A stretch of DNA of 26,533 bases from a virus. A program made the translations under genes and the position numbers. Under the pieces are notes generated by a model. That model had not been told where the DNA came from, made no database searches, and was given only the letters and a program-made list of their open reading frames with translations. How positions within the stretch are numbered: the first letter of the stretch is position 1; every line of letters starts with the position of its first letter. Shown here in pieces: positions 12,942 through 22,458 of the stretch. The stretch spans positions 1-26,533 of IMG/VR virus record IMGVR_UViG_3300042987_001241, one strand, 5' to 3'.

Positions 12942-13847
12942 GTGAGTCCATTACAGCGTTTTCCAAGTGGCATAGGTGTACATCTTAGGGTTGTTCCTGC
13001 ACCTACACCTGCACCAACGCCAGTCGCACCAACGCCAGTCGCCCCAACGCCTGTCGCCCCAACTCCTGTCGCTCCTACACCAGTAGCCCCAACACCTGTT
13101 GCACCTACACCTGTTGCGCCAACTCCTGTTGCGCCTACGCCTGTAGCACCAACCCCTGTTGCGCCTACTCCAGTGGCTCCTACACCTGTTGCACCAACAC
13201 CTGTTGCTCCTACGCCTGTAGCCCCAACACCAGTAGCCCCAACTCCTGTAGCCCCAACACCAGTAGCACCTACGCCTACTACTCCTATAACTGTTTATTG
13301 GGCAACAGGATGCTGTCGTGGTATTCCAAACAATACTCAGGTATATGGATATAGCACTAATCCATTTAATGGTGCTACTCAAGCATTAGATAATTTGTAT
13401 GATGCATGTGGTGGATTACCTGGAGTTGTTGAAAACATTCAACAAGGTACATATACTGATCCACCAAACATAAGCAATGTTCCATCAATCAACTGTACTC
13501 CAGCACCTACACCAGTTGCTCCTACACCAGTTGCTCCTACACCAGTTGCTCCTACTCCAGTAGCACCTACTCCAGTAGCACCTACACCAGTAGCACCTAC
13601 ACCAGTAGCACCTACTCCAGTAGCACCTACACCAGTAGCACCTACTCCAGTGGCTCCTACTCCAGTGGCTCCTACTCCAGTGGCTCCTACTCCAGTGGCT
13701 CCTACTCCAGTGGCTCCTACGCCTACAGCACCATGTACACGATGGACATGCTCTTATCAAGAGTGGTGGGAAGGATATGGAGATTGTGCATATGCTGGAG
13801 ACTGCGGTATGCCATATAACAATGGATTAGCATGTTGCCAGTATTAA
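12942..13847 (+). CDS. proline-rich (APTPV)n fibre-like protein with Cys-rich domains
   Basis: A 301-residue protein starting at GTG 12942 after AAAGGGAG. After about 23 residues there are 17 copies of APTPV. A globular Cys-containing domain (YWATGCCRGIPNN...LYDACGG...SINC) follows, then 14 more APTPV copies and a C-terminal Cys- and aromatic-rich domain (PCTRWTCSYQEWWEGYGDC...LACCQY). The repeats should form extended polyproline-II rods separating two small knobs. The position after tail-tip genes suggests a tail fibre or surface adhesin. Proline and threonine repeats of this kind are classical targets for prolyl hydroxylation and O-glycosylation, and the next operon encodes oxygenases and a glycosyltransferase. 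No signal peptide is seen. Confidence 0.8.
   Translation: MSPLQRFPSGIGVHLRVVPAPTPAPTPVAPTPVAPTPVAPTPVAPTPVAPTPVAPTPVAPTPVAPTPVAPTPVAPTPVAPTPVAPTPVAPTPVAPTPVAPTPVAPTPVAPTPTTPITVYWATGCCRGIPNNTQVYGYSTNPFNGATQALDNLYDACGGLPGVVENIQQGTYTDPPNISNVPSINCTPAPTPVAPTPVAPTPVAPTPVAPTPVAPTPVAPTPVAPTPVAPTPVAPTPVAPTPVAPTPVAPTPVAPTPVAPTPTAPCTRWTCSYQEWWEGYGDCAYAGDCGMPYNNGLACCQY
13011..13265 (+). repeat. tandem repeat tract 1: 17 copies of a 15-bp APTPV unit
   Basis: Seventeen contiguous 15-bp units encode APTPV. The DNA is diverse: GCA, GCC, GCG and GCT for Ala, CCA and CCT for Pro, four Thr codons and four Val codons are mixed. The protein repeat is therefore conserved while the DNA has drifted, indicating an older tract under selection. 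Confidence 0.95.
13503..13712 (+). repeat. tandem repeat tract 2: 14 copies of a 15-bp APTPV unit
   Basis: Fourteen contiguous units encode APTPV. Unlike tract 1, the DNA is nearly uniform and falls into blocks of identical copies (for example four consecutive GCTCCTACTCCAGTG units). This indicates recent expansion by slippage or unequal recombination, and probable copy-number variation between phages. Confidence 0.95.
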
Positions 13848-14256: not shown

Positions 14257-14510
14257 TGAATAATTCGGGGAAGTCAAGATGGCAGCAATATAAAGAAAAT
14301 CTTGGTGAAACAAGACCATGGGACTTTTTAAATCCTAATCTTCAAACTGTTCCTATAGAAATATCAAATAGTAGATTAGATATATGTAAAACATGCCCAG
14401 AATTAATTAAATTAACTACACAATGCAAAAAGTGTGGCTGCTTTATGGCTGCTAAAACAAAATTATCATTTGCAGAATGTCCAATAGGGAAATGGGGTAA
14501 GCATGAATAA
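14256..14510 (+). CDS. small zinc-ribbon protein
   Basis: An 84-residue protein. The N-terminus (RWQQYKENLGETRPWDFLNPN) is amphipathic. The C-terminal half carries RLDICKTCPEL...TQCKKCGCFMAAKTKLSFAECPIGKW, with CxxC, CxxCxC and a final Cys, a compact zinc site. Short proteins with this CPE...CKxCGCxMxxKTKLxxAxCPxGKW pattern are common in marine and freshwater phages, often near tail fibre and oxygenase genes, but their function is unknown. It has no Shine-Dalgarno and is coupled by TAATG to the gene before. It overlaps the first oxygenase by 8 nt. Confidence 0.75.
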   Translation: MNNSGKSRWQQYKENLGETRPWDFLNPNLQTVPIEISNSRLDICKTCPELIKLTTQCKKCGCFMAAKTKLSFAECPIGKWGKHE

Positions 14511-15108
14511 AGAAGAAATAGCACCAGGAATAGTAGTCTATAGCGATGTAATTCCTGATAGTGAAAGTCTATATAAAGACATAGAAGAAGGAATGTTATC
14601 AGCAGGTATTCCATGGGTAGGAGCCAGAGTAAAAGAAGGCGATGGCGAAGGCGATACCTTGAACACAATGACCAGAGACACTCAAACTATTGGTGTGCCT
14701 TATAAGGGTAAAATTGAGGGCGAATTATCTGCTGACATGAGAGTAGTATTTCTTGATAGCCTAAATAATATTTTCTTTCAAAACTTTGATTTACTTGAAA
14801 GAGACTACCTTTCTTCATATAATATTTTTAGCACATGGCATGATCAATGGGGAGTCTTGAAATATGGAGCGGGACAAAAATTTGTTAATCATATAGATGA
14901 TCATCCTGATTATCATAGACGAGTATCTACTGTATATTATCTAAATGATAACTACACAGGTGGAGAAATTAATTTCCCTCGTTTTGGCATAACATTTAAG
15001 CCTAAAGCAAATCAAATGATTGTATTTCCATCTACATATGTTTATAATCACTCAGTATCTCCAGTCATTGAAGGCGAAAGATATGCGGTGGTAAGTTGGT
15101 TACGATGA
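14503..15108 (+). CDS. 2-oxoglutarate/Fe(II) oxygenase, prolyl 4-hydroxylase-like
   Basis: A 201-residue protein. The core reads FVNHIDDHPDYHRRVSTVYY, then LNDNYTGGEINFPRFGITFKP, FPSTYVYNHSVSPV and GERYAVVSW. This gives the full set expected for the prolyl 4-hydroxylase-type fold: iron ligands H130 and D132 (HxD), distal H183, and R193 for 2-oxoglutarate. The spacing and the YxLN...GGE...F segment are typical of P4H-type enzymes in phages. Its substrate is not shown by sequence. The nearest plausible target is the (APTPV)n protein encoded 650 bases upstream. It is followed by two further oxygenase-like genes. Confidence 0.88.
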   Translation: MNKEEIAPGIVVYSDVIPDSESLYKDIEEGMLSAGIPWVGARVKEGDGEGDTLNTMTRDTQTIGVPYKGKIEGELSADMRVVFLDSLNNIFFQNFDLLERDYLSSYNIFSTWHDQWGVLKYGAGQKFVNHIDDHPDYHRRVSTVYYLNDNYTGGEINFPRFGITFKPKANQMIVFPSTYVYNHSVSPVIEGERYAVVSWLR

Positions 15109-15677
15109 AAGATCCATTATTAGTTAATAGTATTTTATCCAAAGAGGACTACGACAGACTTCTACTTGCCGTAGATAATCCTAAAAGTTTTCAATATGAT
15201 CCTGGATTTAGTAGATACTGTATAGGAGATGGCGGACTGCCTATTATAAAGGAATTAGCAACTAAATTAATTCCACTTGCAAGAGAAGTATTTGACAGTG
15301 AAGGCCTATTGCCTACATATGCACTGTTTGCTCATTATGAGGGACAAGACCCTGAGCCAAGTTTATATAAGCATAAAGATGATAATGCATGTACCTACAC
15401 CTTAGATATGTGTGTTTATCAGGTAGAGCCATGGGACCTGTTTGTAGATGATAGGGCGTATACTCTTTATCCTAATCAAGCCCTTGCATATTATGGCAAT
15501 GATCAGTGGCACTGGAGAGAGAAGTTCCCAAATCCAGAAACTAATCATGTTGCTATGATTTTCTTCCACTTTGCAGAGCCTGATCATTGGTACTTTACTA
15601 AAGGTCCTGAATATTTGCAGGTAATTAGAGGACAAATGACAGAAGAACAATGGGAATCCAGTCATGGAAGAAACTAA
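15105..15677 (+). CDS. second 2OG/Fe(II) oxygenase-like protein
   Basis: A 190-residue protein. ATG 15105 is chosen because it overlaps the previous stop as ATGA; a TTG at 15096 would add three residues. The core is SLYKHKDDNACTYTLD (H90, D92 as HxD), PWDLFVDDRAYTLYPNQALAYYGNDQWHWRE (distal H136 within QWHW) and NHVAMIFFHF. This matches the double-stranded beta-helix with a 2-His-1-carboxylate iron site. The 2-oxoglutarate-binding basic residue is less obvious than in the first enzyme (R138 is a candidate). It is distinct in sequence from its neighbours, so it is not a recent tandem duplicate. The substrate is unknown. Confidence 0.75.
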   Translation: MKDPLLVNSILSKEDYDRLLLAVDNPKSFQYDPGFSRYCIGDGGLPIIKELATKLIPLAREVFDSEGLLPTYALFAHYEGQDPEPSLYKHKDDNACTYTLDMCVYQVEPWDLFVDDRAYTLYPNQALAYYGNDQWHWREKFPNPETNHVAMIFFHFAEPDHWYFTKGPEYLQVIRGQMTEEQWESSHGRN

Positions 15678-16176
15678 GGTTATACATAATTTCTTTAATG
15701 CAGATTATTCTTGGGATAATTTTATAAAGTCTATAAGCGATGCTTATGATGTAAATGATCCAAATAATAAGATTGAAGGGCCAAAAGAGGTAGTTGGGAA
15801 AGTAAACTTTTGGCAAAAATTAACTGTAACTTTAGATAATATCAATGAGCAAAATTTTCCAGGGATTGAAGATAAAGTAGTCAAATTAGTAGAACTACAC
15901 AGAACCTTTAGAGATATACCCAATAGATGTACTGGTTATTTTGGTGCTGTAAGTTTTACAAACAAAGAGCCTACTACAGGAAAACATAGCGATCCAATAG
16001 ATGTTATTTATTGTCAATTTATTGGTTCTGTTGTTTGGAGTATATTTACTGATGCTGGTCAACAGGACTTTACATTAAATCCTGGCGATATTATTTATGT
16101 GCCAAGATATGTTGATCACGAAGTAACATCTTTAACTCCAAGAGCAGCAGTATCTTTCATGTTTGATGCGGTATGA
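15664..16176 (+). CDS. cupin/JmjC-like Fe(II) oxygenase
   Basis: A 170-residue protein. The C-terminal half shows TGKHSDPIDVIYCQFIGSVVW (H108 and D110 as HxD), LNPGDIIYVPRYVDHEV (distal H152) and LTPRAAVSF (R160). The NPGDxIYVPxxxxHEV strand is the cupin/JmjC-hydroxylase signature of ribosomal oxygenase and aspartyl hydroxylase relatives. It overlaps the second oxygenase by 14 nt and the glycosyltransferase by 4 nt (ATGA), so all are translated together. The family usually hydroxylates amino-acid side chains in proteins. A non-catalytic sugar-binding cupin is possible but less likely with all ligands present. Confidence 0.75.
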   Translation: MEETKVIHNFFNADYSWDNFIKSISDAYDVNDPNNKIEGPKEVVGKVNFWQKLTVTLDNINEQNFPGIEDKVVKLVELHRTFRDIPNRCTGYFGAVSFTNKEPTTGKHSDPIDVIYCQFIGSVVWSIFTDAGQQDFTLNPGDIIYVPRYVDHEVTSLTPRAAVSFMFDAV

Positions 16177-16937
16177 AAAACGCCATAGTCTATTCTTTTG
16201 TTCTTAGGTCAGGTAGTATTAAAGACCTTCATTGCTATAAGCAGTTGAAGTATTCTATAGATACCCTGCGAAAATATAATGAAGATATACCTGTTTATGT
16301 TTATATATCTGGTGCTGATTTATCTAATTTAGCATTTGACAAAAATGTTCATATTGTAAAGTTTGATGTTGTAGATGATGGCGGATGGCCTGAAGATTGG
16401 GTTAAATTAGGATATTTACAATTCCTAAAGCATAGATGGGAAAATGCAATACAGTCCATACATGACTACAATTTAGATAACATTTTATATCTTGATACAG
16501 ATACCGTATTCCATGGAGATCCAGAAATACTATTTGACAAATATGGATCAACAGAATATCTATGGGCAAAGCCAGACAATAGTACTGACATAATGCAAAT
16601 AGTTGAAGTTTGGCCTGGTATGAATGATGGCCAATTTATACTAAGTAAAGCCTTAGCAAATAAAGACATACTTAAGCATATGAAGTTCTATGTTAATCAT
16701 ATTACCTCTAAGCATAAAGATAAACTGACAAATCAACAATATAGAGATTTATGCTGGATATCCACACAATACGCAGTTTGGGATTACTTTCAAAATCAAA
16801 ACAATCCAGTAAAATATTTTGATGATAAAGAAGTTATGCTTCATGTAGAGCCAGAACATAATAATACAGATAAGTTGATTCTGCATCATTACTATAGTGG
16901 AAATACGACTAAGTTTGTTCCAGGAGAATATCTATGA
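16173..16937 (+). CDS. GT-A fold glycosyltransferase
   Basis: A 254-residue protein. It begins KNAIVYSFVLRSGS and has a sugar-nucleotide binding core. The hallmark is NILYLDTDTVFHGDPE with the metal-binding DxD at residues 108-110. Further on are NDGQFILSKA and a C-terminal ILHHYYSGNTTKF that resembles the closing His/Lys motif of GT8-like enzymes. Enzymes of this fold transfer a sugar from a nucleotide donor with a divalent metal. It overlaps both neighbours by ATGA, one a protein oxygenase and the other a sugar-nucleotide epimerase, which suggests glycosylation of a hydroxylated protein, plausibly the fibre. Assignment among GT8, GT77 and others cannot be made by eye. Confidence 0.8.
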   Translation: MKNAIVYSFVLRSGSIKDLHCYKQLKYSIDTLRKYNEDIPVYVYISGADLSNLAFDKNVHIVKFDVVDDGGWPEDWVKLGYLQFLKHRWENAIQSIHDYNLDNILYLDTDTVFHGDPEILFDKYGSTEYLWAKPDNSTDIMQIVEVWPGMNDGQFILSKALANKDILKHMKFYVNHITSKHKDKLTNQQYRDLCWISTQYAVWDYFQNQNNPVKYFDDKEVMLHVEPEHNNTDKLILHHYYSGNTTKFVPGEYL

Positions 16938-17944
16938 AAATATTAGTAACAGGAGTTGCTGGATTTCTTGGTAGTTACATAGCAGAAGCCTTCTTAAAAC
17001 TTGATTATCAGGTTGTTGGAATAGATAATCTTATAGGTGGAGAACTATCAAACATCCCAGAAGGTGTTGAGTTTCATGAATTAGACCTAAATAATCTTGA
17101 ATCAATCAATGATATTTTTACTGGAGTAGATATAGTTGTTCATACAGCATGTACTCCTCATGAAGGGCTGTCTGTTTTTAGTCCCGCTTTTGTAACGCAG
17201 AACACCTTTCAGGTAACTGCTAATGTCCTCAGTGCCTCTGCCAGGGCAAATGTAAAGAAGTTCGTATACATGTCCTCTATGGCAAGATATGGCTCTCAGG
17301 AGACACCTTTTACAGAAGATATGACTCCTATGCCACAAGATCCTTACGGCATTGCTAAATACGCCTCAGAGATGCTTGTAAGAAATGTATGCAATACGCA
17401 TCATATGGATTTTGTAATTTTAGTTCCACACAACATTATTGGGCCAAAACAGAAATATGATGACCCATTCCGTAATGTCGTGTCAATCATGATTAATCGT
17501 GCTCTACAGGGCAAACAGCCAATTATTTACGGCGACGGTAATCAGATGAGATGCTTCTCATTTATTAGTGACTTGATTAATCCTATTGTCCAGGCATGTT
17601 TAGATGGAAGAGGAAATAGTCAGGTAATAAATATTGGACCAGATGATGAGTTCATAACTATAAACGATTTGGCAAAGAGAATATGTGATCAAGTGGGCCT
17701 GCCCTATAATCCCATCTATTTGCCAAGTAGACCTCAAGAGGTAAAACTTGCTAACTGCAGTGCAGCAAGAGCAAGAAATGTCTTGGGCTACAGAAAGACA
17801 ATAACCTTAGATCAAGGTCTATCAGAAATGATTGAATGGATAAAGGCGAAGGGTACTAAGCAATTTAAGTATCACTTACCAGTAGAACTTGTAAAAAAGA
17901 ATACACCATCAACTTGGACTGATGATTTATTTAATAAATTATAA
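16934..17944 (+). CDS. NAD-dependent sugar-nucleotide epimerase/dehydratase
   Basis: A 336-residue extended short-chain dehydrogenase/reductase. It starts MKILVTGVAGFLGSYIAEAF with the GxxGxxG nucleotide-binding loop (G7, G10, G13). It has VYMSSMARYG with the active-site serine (near 114-115), and DPYGIAKYASE with the YxxxK pair (Y138, K142). The length matches UDP-glucose 4-epimerases and related 4,6-dehydratases. AGGAG lies seven bases before ATG 16934, which also overlaps the glycosyltransferase stop. It probably makes the sugar donor for the glycosyltransferase just upstream or for the GT4 enzyme at 21140. The exact sugar is not readable. Confidence 0.88.
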   Translation: MKILVTGVAGFLGSYIAEAFLKLDYQVVGIDNLIGGELSNIPEGVEFHELDLNNLESINDIFTGVDIVVHTACTPHEGLSVFSPAFVTQNTFQVTANVLSASARANVKKFVYMSSMARYGSQETPFTEDMTPMPQDPYGIAKYASEMLVRNVCNTHHMDFVILVPHNIIGPKQKYDDPFRNVVSIMINRALQGKQPIIYGDGNQMRCFSFISDLINPIVQACLDGRGNSQVINIGPDDEFITINDLAKRICDQVGLPYNPIYLPSRPQEVKLANCSAARARNVLGYRKTITLDQGLSEMIEWIKAKGTKQFKYHLPVELVKKNTPSTWTDDLFNKL

Positions 17945-19120: not shown

Positions 19121-19522
19121 ATTAAAAAAGATACAATAATCGGAGGATTATGCGTATTAATAGCAGTTTTATTATTACAAGTAAATACTCCAACACCAGC
19201 AGTTCCAGTAGTATATACTGAAAGACCACCTCTAATGCAGGTATCTGCAAAGGAAGTGGCAAAGGAATTGCTTACTAAAGAACAATATTCATGCTTTACC
19301 AAGTTGATTGGAAAAGAATCAGCCTGGAATCCTAAAGCAGAAAATCCAAGATCCACAGCAAGTGGAATAGGACAAATGCTTGATTCTACTTATAGTAGTT
19401 TAGGCATGAAAAAACAAAAGGCAGGAGTAAGTCAATTAGTGGCTACCCTTTCATATATTTCCAGAAGGCATGTAACTCCTTGCGGAGCATGGAAACATTT
19501 TCAGAACAATGGCTGGTATTAG
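19121..19522 (+). CDS. membrane-anchored SLT-type transglycosylase with probable ATT start
   Basis: The frame is open from 19106. A perfect AAGGAG (19108-19113) lies seven bases before ATT at 19121, and no ATG, GTG or TTG occurs until 19235, which lacks a ribosome site. From ATT the protein has 133 residues: KKD, then one membrane helix (TIIGGLCVLIAVLLLQV), a Pro-rich linker (NTPTPAVPVV) and a lysozyme-like domain with KLIGKESAWNPKAENPRSTA and SGIGQML, where the Glu in GKES is the catalytic acid of soluble lytic transglycosylases. The domain is short. It could help lysis or act as a wall-opening enzyme. Two cysteines (SCFTK, TPCG) may bond outside the cytoplasm. With the ATG start the anchor would be lost. 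Confidence 0.75.
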   Translation: MKKDTIIGGLCVLIAVLLLQVNTPTPAVPVVYTERPPLMQVSAKEVAKELLTKEQYSCFTKLIGKESAWNPKAENPRSTASGIGQMLDSTYSSLGMKKQKAGVSQLVATLSYISRRHVTPCGAWKHFQNNGWY

Positions 19523-19525
19523 AGT

Positions 19526-19555
19526 TTGACAGTATACCAATCACCATGTTATAAT
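19526..19555 (+). promoter_or_regulatory. consensus sigma70 promoter for the anti-SD RNA
   Basis: TTGACA (19526-19531), 18-base spacer, TATAAT (19550-19555): both hexamers are perfect consensus. The predicted start is A19562. It begins five bases downstream of the transglycosylase stop codon. Confidence 0.9.
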
Positions 19556-19561
19556 GAGTAT

Positions 19562-19659
19562 ATTCATGTTGCCATATGAATAAAAATGTCGGATCACCTC
19601 CTGACAGATAGCCTCCAGGGCTGTTTACTCTCATTCTCACTCTGGAGGCTATTTTTTTT
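19562..19659 (+). ncRNA. small RNA displaying the 16S rRNA 3' tail (anti-Shine-Dalgarno mimic)
   Basis: A ~98-nt unit between a consensus promoter and a perfect terminator, without a meaningful ORF. Three hairpins are visible. The first is TATTCAT (19561-19567) with ATGAATA (19576-19582) at the 5' end. The second is TGTC (19587-19590) with GACA (19603-19606), enclosing exactly the 12 bases GGATCACCTCCT. The third is the terminator. That loop is identical to the conserved single-stranded 3' tail of bacterial 16S rRNA, including the CCTCC anti-Shine-Dalgarno. The RNA would offer ribosome-like pairing to AGGAGG sites in mRNA, so a translational decoy or general antisense repressor is inferred. 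No named RNA family is recognised. Confidence 0.8.
19608..19659 (+). terminator. strong intrinsic terminator of the anti-SD RNA
   Basis: ATAGCCTCCAG (19608-19618) pairs perfectly with CTGGAGGCTAT (19642-19652) around a 23-base loop and is followed by eight T (19652-19659). Its arms contain CCTCC and GGAGG, so its 3' arm could also pair with the anti-SD loop of the same RNA. Confidence 0.9.
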
Positions 19660-19665
19660 GTCTAT

Positions 19666-19695
19666 TTGACATATAAAAAACTCTAATGCTACAAT
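19666..19695 (+). promoter_or_regulatory. sigma70 promoter at the start of the second half of the map
   Basis: TTGACA (19666-19671), 18-base spacer, TACAAT (19690-19695). The predicted start A19702 is also the A of an ATG that opens a nine-codon frame (stop 19729-19731) overlapping the start of the 19721 gene. It starts seven bases after the U-tract of the terminator. Confidence 0.8.
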
Positions 19696-19720: not shown

Positions 19721-20017
19721 ATGTATTATAGAGGCGTCAAGCAGGTAAGAACATCCAGCAATGCCTATAGCACTGTGCGATATGATAAAGATGGAAATAT
19801 TCTTTTAGAAACAAAGGCTGCAAGAAAAGCCAGAAATAAGGCTATGCAAGCAGCAAGAGCAAAGAATAAAAACAAGAAGAAGTCAGATAAGAAAAAATGG
19901 AAAAAACTTTTAAATAAGTATGAGAATACTTGTTGTATTTGCCATCAAGAAGTTCTTGTTGGTGAAGAGATATTTTGGAATATCAAGAGCAAAAGGATCA
20001 AGCATGTAACGCATTAA
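19721..20017 (+). CDS. basic protein with incomplete zinc-finger-like end
   Basis: A 98-residue protein, first of the probable early genes, behind a strong promoter. Residues 30-70 are extremely Lys/Arg/Ala-rich (KAARKARNKAMQAARAKNKN and further KKKSDKKKWKK), suited to binding nucleic acid. The C-terminus reads CCICHQEVLVGEEIFWNIKSKRIKHVTH. This is the pattern of a zinc finger of the CxxC...GE..W...K..HV.C type, but the last ligand is His instead of Cys and the gene stops there. GAAGAGAG is a modest ribosome site. Possible roles are host takeover or DNA binding; no family is certain. Confidence 0.7.
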   Translation: MYYRGVKQVRTSSNAYSTVRYDKDGNILLETKAARKARNKAMQAARAKNKNKKKSDKKKWKKLLNKYENTCCICHQEVLVGEEIFWNIKSKRIKHVTH

Positions 20018-21046: not shown

Positions 21047-21143
21047 GGCAAAGGAAACTATAAATAAAACAATTCAGACAATAGACAAAATCATCTACTT
21101 GTTAGAAAACGAATGCTGTAAAGGGGATTGCTGTAAAAAATGA
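20982..21143 (+). CDS. small Cys-rich protein with CCKGDCC end
   Basis: A 53-residue frame with a very good ribosome site (GGAGG at 20971-20975, six bases before ATG 20982). Its stop overlaps the glycosyltransferase start as ATGA. The protein starts MGGPTYPQM, has a central amphipathic helix (LAEAKETINKTIQTIDKIIYLLEN) and ends ECCKGDCCKK, four cysteines in a compact metal-binding or thiol motif. It overlaps the 3' part of the preceding gene in another frame. The helix resembles a dimerising coil. Function unknown. Confidence 0.65.
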   Translation: MGGPTYPQMDTSSQNYQKSLAEAKETINKTIQTIDKIIYLLENECCKGDCCKK

Positions 21144-22210
21144 GATTCCATGTTATAGGACTCCCGCACACAAACACAACTAAAGAGTTTGAAAACTGTG
21201 CCTACACAATGAAGATTATTAATTTCTGCAAAATGATGCATTCCCTTGATCATGAGATATTTTTATACGGCGGAACAAAGAATGAAGCACCAGTAACAGA
21301 ATTTATTCCATGTATGCCAGAAGAAGAAAGACTTAACCTACTTGATGGAAAGCATTTTCTACATGTTCCATATGATGCAGAATTAGAAGGATGGCAATAT
21401 TTTAACAATGCCGTCACAAATGAGATTAAGAAAAGATTACAGCCTCAAGACTTTATTCTATTTATTGCTGGTTCTACACAAGTAAGTATTGCTAATGAAT
21501 TTCCAAATAATATAAGGGTAGAATACGGTATTGGTTATGCAGGAACATTTGCACCATTTAGAGTATTTGAATCTGAAGCCTGGAGACATAGTGTTTATGC
21601 CATGCATAAGAATCCTACAACTGTAGATGGTAATTTCTTTGATGATGTTATTCCAGGTTATTTGGATCCTGCTCAATATCCGCTACAGGAAACAAAAGAT
21701 GATTATTATTTATATGTAGGTAGATTAATTCCAAGAAAAGGAATTGATGTGGCTGTACAGGTCTGTGAGAAATTAGGCAAGCGTCTAATCCTTGCAGGTG
21801 TAGGAGATTTTAAAACGGAGTACGGAGAATACATAGGTCCAGTCTATGGTAAAGAAAAGGCTGAACTCATGGGTAAAGCCATAGCAGTATTTACTCCAAC
21901 CTACTACATAGAGCCATTCGCAAATGTACATATTGAGGCTCAGGTATGTGGTACGCCAGTCATAACTACTCCATGGGGCGTTTATAGTGAGACTGTGATT
22001 AATGGATTAAATGGCTATAAATGTCATACCTTCAAAGAATTCCTAAAAGCGGCGGAAGATGTAAAAAGCCTTGATCCAAAGACTATAAGTAATAGAGCCA
22101 CAGAAATGTATTCATTAGATAGCGTAAGGCATAAATATCATACATATTTTACAAGGCTAATGAGCCTACATGGTGAAGGTTGGTATGATTTAAAATATGA
22201 CCAGACATGA
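21140..22210 (+). CDS. GT4-type (GT-B) glycosyltransferase
   Basis: A 356-residue protein. The N-terminal half opens MRFHVIGLPHTNTTKEFE. The C-terminal half shows the donor-binding signature of group 1 transferases: YYLYVGRLIPRKGIDVA, LILAGVG and EPFANVHIEAQVCGTPVITT, which includes the EX7E pair. These retaining enzymes move sugars from nucleotide donors to glycans, lipids, proteins or modified DNA bases. It is separate from the oxygenase and GT operon at 14-18 kb and sits among probable early genes, so modification of a host surface glycan or of DNA is as likely as fibre glycosylation. AAAGGGG precedes the ATG, and coupling by ATGA is also present. Confidence 0.88.
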   Translation: MRFHVIGLPHTNTTKEFENCAYTMKIINFCKMMHSLDHEIFLYGGTKNEAPVTEFIPCMPEEERLNLLDGKHFLHVPYDAELEGWQYFNNAVTNEIKKRLQPQDFILFIAGSTQVSIANEFPNNIRVEYGIGYAGTFAPFRVFESEAWRHSVYAMHKNPTTVDGNFFDDVIPGYLDPAQYPLQETKDDYYLYVGRLIPRKGIDVAVQVCEKLGKRLILAGVGDFKTEYGEYIGPVYGKEKAELMGKAIAVFTPTYYIEPFANVHIEAQVCGTPVITTPWGVYSETVINGLNGYKCHTFKEFLKAAEDVKSLDPKTISNRATEMYSLDSVRHKYHTYFTRLMSLHGEGWYDLKYDQT

Positions 22211-22308: not shown

Positions 22309-22458
22309 ATGAATAAAAACTTAGATAGCCTTATGTGCATATTTTGCCAAGGCTTTATTGCAGATAAGATGGATTATACAAAGACCCTCTACTGCCAACC
22401 ATGCAACGAATATAAAGGCGTAGTAACCGTCAGAGAATTTCTGGAGGTGTATGCATAA
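22309..22458 (+). CDS. small zinc-ribbon protein
   Basis: ATG 22309 has AAGGAG nine bases upstream and follows a 5'-terminal hairpin, so it is my preferred start (49 residues). An in-frame ATG at 22267, exactly at the predicted transcription start, would add 14 residues. The sequence LMCIFCQGFIADKMDYTKTLYCQPCNEYKG contains two CxxC pairs spaced like a zinc ribbon, followed by a short helix (VTVREFLEVYA). No specific family is known to me. It shares its final A with the ATG of the endonuclease VII gene (TAATG). Confidence 0.7.
   Translation: MNKNLDSLMCIFCQGFIADKMDYTKTLYCQPCNEYKGVVTVREFLEVYA

Follow-up and report, generated by a model that had tools for sequence, protein, structure and literature searches.

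Small RNAs (sRNAs) with an anti-Shine-Dalgarno (anti-SD) seed are already known from bacterial chromosomes. The alpha-r14/NfeR1 ('cuckoo') sRNAs silence targets by pairing at the translation initiation region, as the anti-SD loops of NfeR1 do with ntrBC (PMC10746234), SisA-D of Caulobacter crescentus are established anti-SD seed sRNAs (PMC12559287), and for the C-rich loops of the mycobacterial 6C/B11 RNA (Rfam RF01066), pairing with ribosome-binding sites has been reported (PMC10470900). Among phages, AgvB and AsxR are encoded sponges, i.e., trans-acting sRNAs that alter post-transcriptional control in the host (PMC12559287), and the mycobacteriophages L5, D29 and StarStuff produce an abundant early non-coding RNA that is very strongly transcribed and toxic to the host (PMC5712189). 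We found no description of a phage-encoded anti-SD sRNA family in Rfam or in the open-licence papers searched, and within these sources the family reported here is previously undescribed.

The RNA gene analysed here lies in a stretch of 26,533 nucleotides (the window) that represents positions 1 to 26,533 of the IMG/VR virus record IMGVR_UViG_3300042987_001241. Like alpha-r14/NfeR1, it specifies a short sRNA in which very different stems present an ultraconserved anti-SD motif, CCUCCUCCC in the bacterial RNAs (PMC10746234). The latter are encoded by alphaproteobacterial chromosomes and display CCUCCUCCC in three hairpins, an arrangement absent here, whereas the phage RNAs have one or two sites with UCACCUCC, the core (U)CACCUCC being followed by A, G or T; the second loop GUUGCCAU, found in one subgroup, belongs to the phage RNA only. 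The likeness to 6C/B11 is that of an actinobacterial sRNA with loops for which contacts with ribosome-binding sites have been reported (PMC10470900), but those loops are runs of C, unlike the phage loops GTTGCCAT and TCACCTCC with the CACCUCC core, and the RF01066 covariance model gave 0 matches in the window. SisA-D, set beside the phage RNA by description only, are chromosomal. The L5/D29/StarStuff RNA is likewise a non-coding RNA encoded by actinophages, but it is transcribed from Pleft within a region of ~500 bp, and both CCTCC and CACCTC are absent from either strand of the right-end 901 bases of D29. AgvB and AsxR differ in that their targets are host sRNAs, not SD sites. By analogy, the phage RNA may act like the bacterial anti-SD seed sRNAs, while falling outside the 6C and alpha-r14 sequence definitions that were tested. 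It has the sequence features of this class, namely, its own promoter and terminator and no ORF, along with variable stems around a conserved seed that folding predicts to be accessible. The family may also be relevant to the abundant, unexplained non-coding RNAs that other actinophages produce.

The phage and its RNA gene

Portal, capsid, endolysin and transglycosylase genes of the record match phage families. The capsid protein matches Mycobacterium phages only (~36%), and the transglycosylase matches mainly phages of Streptomyces, Gordonia and other actinophages; with a GC content of 38%, the phage is most likely, judging from these matches, an actinophage with an A/T-rich genome. Alignment of the transglycosylase and portal queries against genome contigs did not point out a host. 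Other genes include one (12942-13847) for a low-complexity protein with long tandem APTPV repeats (~30 copies), and genes for a 2OG-Fe(II) oxygenase, an NAD-dependent epimerase and a glycosyltransferase within 14503-17944 and 21140-22210.

Table 1. Features of the RNA gene and its surroundings (window positions)
Feature	Positions	Strand	Evidence or remark
Sigma-70 promoter TTGACA-N18-TATAAT with extended -10 (TGTTATAAT)	19526..19555	+	Single 12/12 site in the window; kept in relatives; TTGACA 19526-19531, TATAAT 19550-19555, TG ahead of the -10
Hairpin 1, ATTCAT-GTTGCCAT-ATGAAT	19562..19581	+	Folding and comparison with relatives; loop 19568-19575
Hairpin 2, TGTCGGATCACCTCCTGACA, displaying the anti-SD seed	19587..19606	+	Folding and relatives
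Conserved seed TCACCTCC	19594..19601	+	CCTCC in 34/34 distinct cassette RNAs; predicted unpaired
Intrinsic terminator, perfect 11-bp stem, U-run, pyrimidine-rich loop (ACTCTCATTCTC)	19608..19659	+	Relatives and covariation of the type A stem
Transglycosylase-like gene, directly upstream; marks the conserved locus	19235..19522	+	phrog_12661, E 4.8e-20
Second promoter TTGACA-N18-TACAAT with extended -10, for downstream genes	19666..19695	+	
Downstream ORF, 98 aa, outside the sRNA	19721..20017	+	Without PHROGs or Pfam match

The promoter, the terminator and the lack of a plausible ORF between them are as given in a first-pass annotation of this DNA (Table 1), and transcription is expected to start near 19562. 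The terminator stem, ATAGCCTCCAG/CTGGAGGCTAT, is followed by a run of 8 T. Because the downstream genes have their own promoter, the sRNA represents a separate transcription unit. The whole RNA is predicted to fold at -34.7 kcal/mol (z = -5.45 compared to shuffled sequences), and no credible Rfam family was found for it at either gathering or permissive thresholds. Hairpin 1, whose loop is the complement of AUGGCAAC, is missing from the first-pass annotation, which centred on 12 bases identical to the 3' tail of 16S rRNA. This 12-mer, GGATCACCTCCT, is indeed an exact match at 19591-19602 and unique in the window (allowing up to 2 mismatches gives 3 sites, vs 1.2 expected by chance). The stem had been described as closing precisely where the 12-mer begins and ends; however, the minimum-energy stem, TGTCGG/CUGACA, extends into it and leaves the loop AUCACCUC.

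Elsewhere around the RNA gene, a minus-strand gene starting AGGAGGTG...ATGGCAAC was considered and rejected, the ORFs being 3-52 aa only and not conserved. An antiterminator role, in which the seed would pair with a GGAGG of the terminator, was also discarded, given that the terminators of many members have no such sequence. The segment 20018-20400 contains few ORFs and several short hairpins (GGGCGAAGCCC, GCTTGCTTCGCAAGC; z of -2.5 vs shuffles), and its predicted folding suggests that it might be another structured RNA.

Conservation of the cassette and of its anti-SD core

Relatives were collected via the upstream transglycosylase gene, yielding 51 related contigs, of which 44 close ones have a complete slot (that of L145 is incomplete). 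The cassette occupies the same place in 43 of these 44; it is absent from the most distant relatives (L165-L168 and L170). Two scans independent of the neighbouring gene gave the same location: all nine matches of the hairpin pattern of one subgroup (type C, below) adjoin a transglycosylase homologue, as does every cassette-bearing match of the promoter pattern, including L369, where the homologue is just 60% identical. Among the matches listed for the type B pattern GTTGATTACCTCCT, only L415 has a promoter-like sequence upstream, and no cassette was seen there. Nucleotide BLAST of phage records returned chance short matches only. Taken together, sequence comparison indicates that this is a true, conserved RNA gene at a fixed position in the phage genome.

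We then compared the cassette RNAs base by base. CCTCC is present in all 34 distinct RNAs (L369 included), and the preceding A, C and T in 32, 29 and 29 of them, respectively. Before L369 was added, CCTCC occurred in 33/33 distinct RNAs compared to 4.2 in shuffled sequences, and CACCTCC in 29/33 compared to 0.3. It should be noted that this 33-RNA set was gathered partly by CCTCC itself; as an unbiased check on these counts, the slots were scanned without a CCTCC filter, and CCTCC was found in 43 of the 44 complete slots, ~40-55 nt past the -10 box in those with a recognisable promoter, the single exception being the cassette of L153, which has no CCTCC. The remaining positions of the 16S tail vary: G at -6 is present in 4/34, and, after CCTCC, the second T in 7/34 and the third T in 4/34. 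In the cassette RNAs, CCTCC is followed by A, G or T, and never by the TT of the 16S tail.

The core is kept while its surroundings change. Stems (TGTCAG, GTTGA, TCTATG), spacing, length, hairpin number and terminators all differ between subgroups, among which we define the following three architectures: (i) type A, in which a hairpin with GTTGCCAT is followed by the seed (the window, L121, L125, L126, L134, L135, L148, L152 and L162); (ii) type B, in which a GTTGA...TCAAC hairpin bears the seed and is usually followed by a second hairpin, with CACCTCC repeated in the latter in L124 and L133; (iii) type C, which consists of one TCTATG...CATAGA hairpin. CCTCC has a mean predicted unpaired probability of 0.84, compared to 0.41 in surrounding windows. 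In the predicted folds of L125, L134 and L135, the core lies in an unpaired linker outside any hairpin; therefore, it is exposure that is kept, not the hairpin. Covariation is clear in the type A terminator stem, where 7 of 12 pairs have changed on both sides, and slight, at 1 of 6 pairs, in the type C hairpin.

These patterns bear on two explanations of the 12-base match. The first is that an ordinary promoter and terminator happen to enclose a coincidental 12-mer with no functional RNA. Chance had been called very unlikely in the first-pass annotation, but the 12-mer alone is indecisive: followed by T6, it occurs in at least 119 stretches of IMG/VR, most of them coding-like or unrelated and not relatives of this phage, and its GGA part is peculiar to the window member. 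The case is carried by comparative conservation, as the seed is kept in dozens of divergent members despite changing surroundings, which leaves coincidence with almost negligible probability.

The second explanation, put forward in the first-pass annotation, is that the RNA mimics the 3' tail of 16S rRNA, masking SDs globally or capturing factors that bind the tail and favouring phage mRNAs. The exact 12-base identity in the window agrees with such a broad decoy, and the RNA is driven by the strongest promoter of the window. The tail as a whole, GGAUCACCUCCU(UU), is not conserved, however: bases of it beyond (U)CACCUCC vary, the core can be presented without a hairpin, and the second invariant loop of type A suggests specific targets. 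We consider the decoy unlikely; an antisense SD seed explains the conservation pattern better than capture of tail-binding factors. Free variation of the loop beside a kept promoter and terminator, which would speak against the original proposal, is not what the relatives display, since they keep the core. What stands of that proposal is a phage small RNA gene with an exposed, conserved anti-SD; mimicry of the whole framed 16S tail does not. As judged by conservation, the anti-SD core is functional, and the kept element, in alignments and predicted folds, is a single-stranded (U)CACCUCC seed, not the full 16S tail. Since the flanking 16S bases are not conserved, the exact 12-base identity is, on this comparison, largely peculiar to the window member and partly coincidental.

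Predicted pairing with ribosome-binding sites

The kept seed is the complement of GGAGGUGA. In predicted duplexes with GGAGGUG, the sRNA seeds reach a mean of -15.8 kcal/mol, compared to -16.6 kcal/mol for the 16S tail, a similarity that would also suit the broad decoy. With AAGGAG, the seeds pair more weakly than the tail (-6.9 vs -8.8 kcal/mol), because no member continues CCUCCUU. AAGGAG is the commonest SD of the phages' own genes, GGAGG-containing sites precede 11 of 598 genes, and AGGAGG is absent from the plus strand of the window.

Together with the resemblance to bacterial anti-SD sRNAs, these observations make it reasonably probable, in our judgement, that the RNA works in trans, as an antisense sRNA, and occludes strong ribosome-binding sites of the GGAGGU(G) type. 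Beyond the gene itself, its conservation, the predicted accessible seed and the SD register of the phages, we infer expression, pairing in vivo, targets and repression. Host RNA polymerase would transcribe an RNA of ~98 nt from the consensus sigma-70 promoter, ending at its own terminator; the (U)CACCUCC seed, single-stranded in a loop or linker, would pair with GGAGGU(G) SD sites; and this pairing would prevent 30S binding. In type A RNAs, the second loop GUUGCCAU could also pair with a AUGGCAAC start codon, and the order of the two elements, anti-AUG 5' and anti-SD 3', is the correct antiparallel one for a single translation initiation region.

Host mRNAs appear to be likelier targets than phage mRNAs, because the phage genes use AAGGAG, a site to which the seed is predicted to bind more weakly than the 16S tail. 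Among phage gene starts in the contigs, none was a conserved partner of both seeds, which points again to the host. Regulation of phage genes, such as the endonuclease-VII-like gene at 22458 with its GGAGGTG site or the neighbouring lysis genes, would account for the location of the cassette beside lysis genes and for the occurrence of TGGAGGTGTATGCATAATG ahead of a gene in the window, L121 and L122, and of GGAGGTATACGCATAATG ahead of a gene in L126 and L130. Yet this GGAGGTG is, in the window, coding sequence for the conserved end of the gene before it, AAGGAG accounts for most phage SDs, and the type A holin starts match GUUGCCAU inconsistently, making such regulation decidedly unlikely. The holin was accordingly rejected as a phage target of GUUGCCAU: that of the window starts with ATGGCAAAG, and those of other type A members mostly with ATGGCTAAAG.

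More tentatively, the antisense sRNA might be a dedicated means of selectively shutting off host translation initiation, with GGAGGU(G) sites occluded and the AAGGAG register of the phage insulated, a possibility that we regard as less than even. Insulation would arise from the pairing of AAGGAG with CUCCUU, the part of the 16S tail that the sRNA omits; the use of AAGGAG may instead reflect an A/T-rich phage or host. If true, a phage anti-SD sRNA kept at a fixed locus and combined with a weakly bound phage SD register would enable the phage to take over its host through an RNA that acts on translation initiation.

Additional conserved loops and adjacent sequences

The long invariant blocks of type A are GTTGCCAT and CCTCC only, and the second invariant loop, GUUGCCAU, is confined to the nine type A members, the window among them. 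Pyrimidine loops are exposed and conserved at several places, the CTCCC..TTTCT of the type C terminator loop among them, which is compatible with a sponge or bait: a host RNA containing GGAGG could be caught by the CCUCC loop, or a protein could be bound by the loops. The phage sponges AgvB/AsxR offer a precedent (PMC12559287). However, the core is most simply explained by its match to the anti-SD, and we rate a sponge or bait as highly improbable compared to an antisense seed.

The pyrimidine-rich CTCCC..TTTCT motif is conserved in type C terminator loops (e.g., L136, L142 and L149) and is possibly a third seed. An alternative seed may perhaps be seen in TCCCTTTCTGGTG, which occurs both in the hairpin loop of L153, TGCTCCCTTTCTGGTG, and in L129, in its second hairpin. 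Directly 3' of the sRNA terminator, a second conserved stretch of ~190 nt, apparently non-coding, was observed (e.g., L137:6662-6860); it had no Rfam match at gathering threshold in the loci tested. This stretch reads GCGTTTAGAGATCACATCAATGTTGG...GACTACGGGCAGA...GGCGAAGCC...CATGGGCAGA, has a promoter-like sequence ahead of it, and is carried by L123, L137, L140, L143, L150, L152, L156, L157, L169, L339 and L369.
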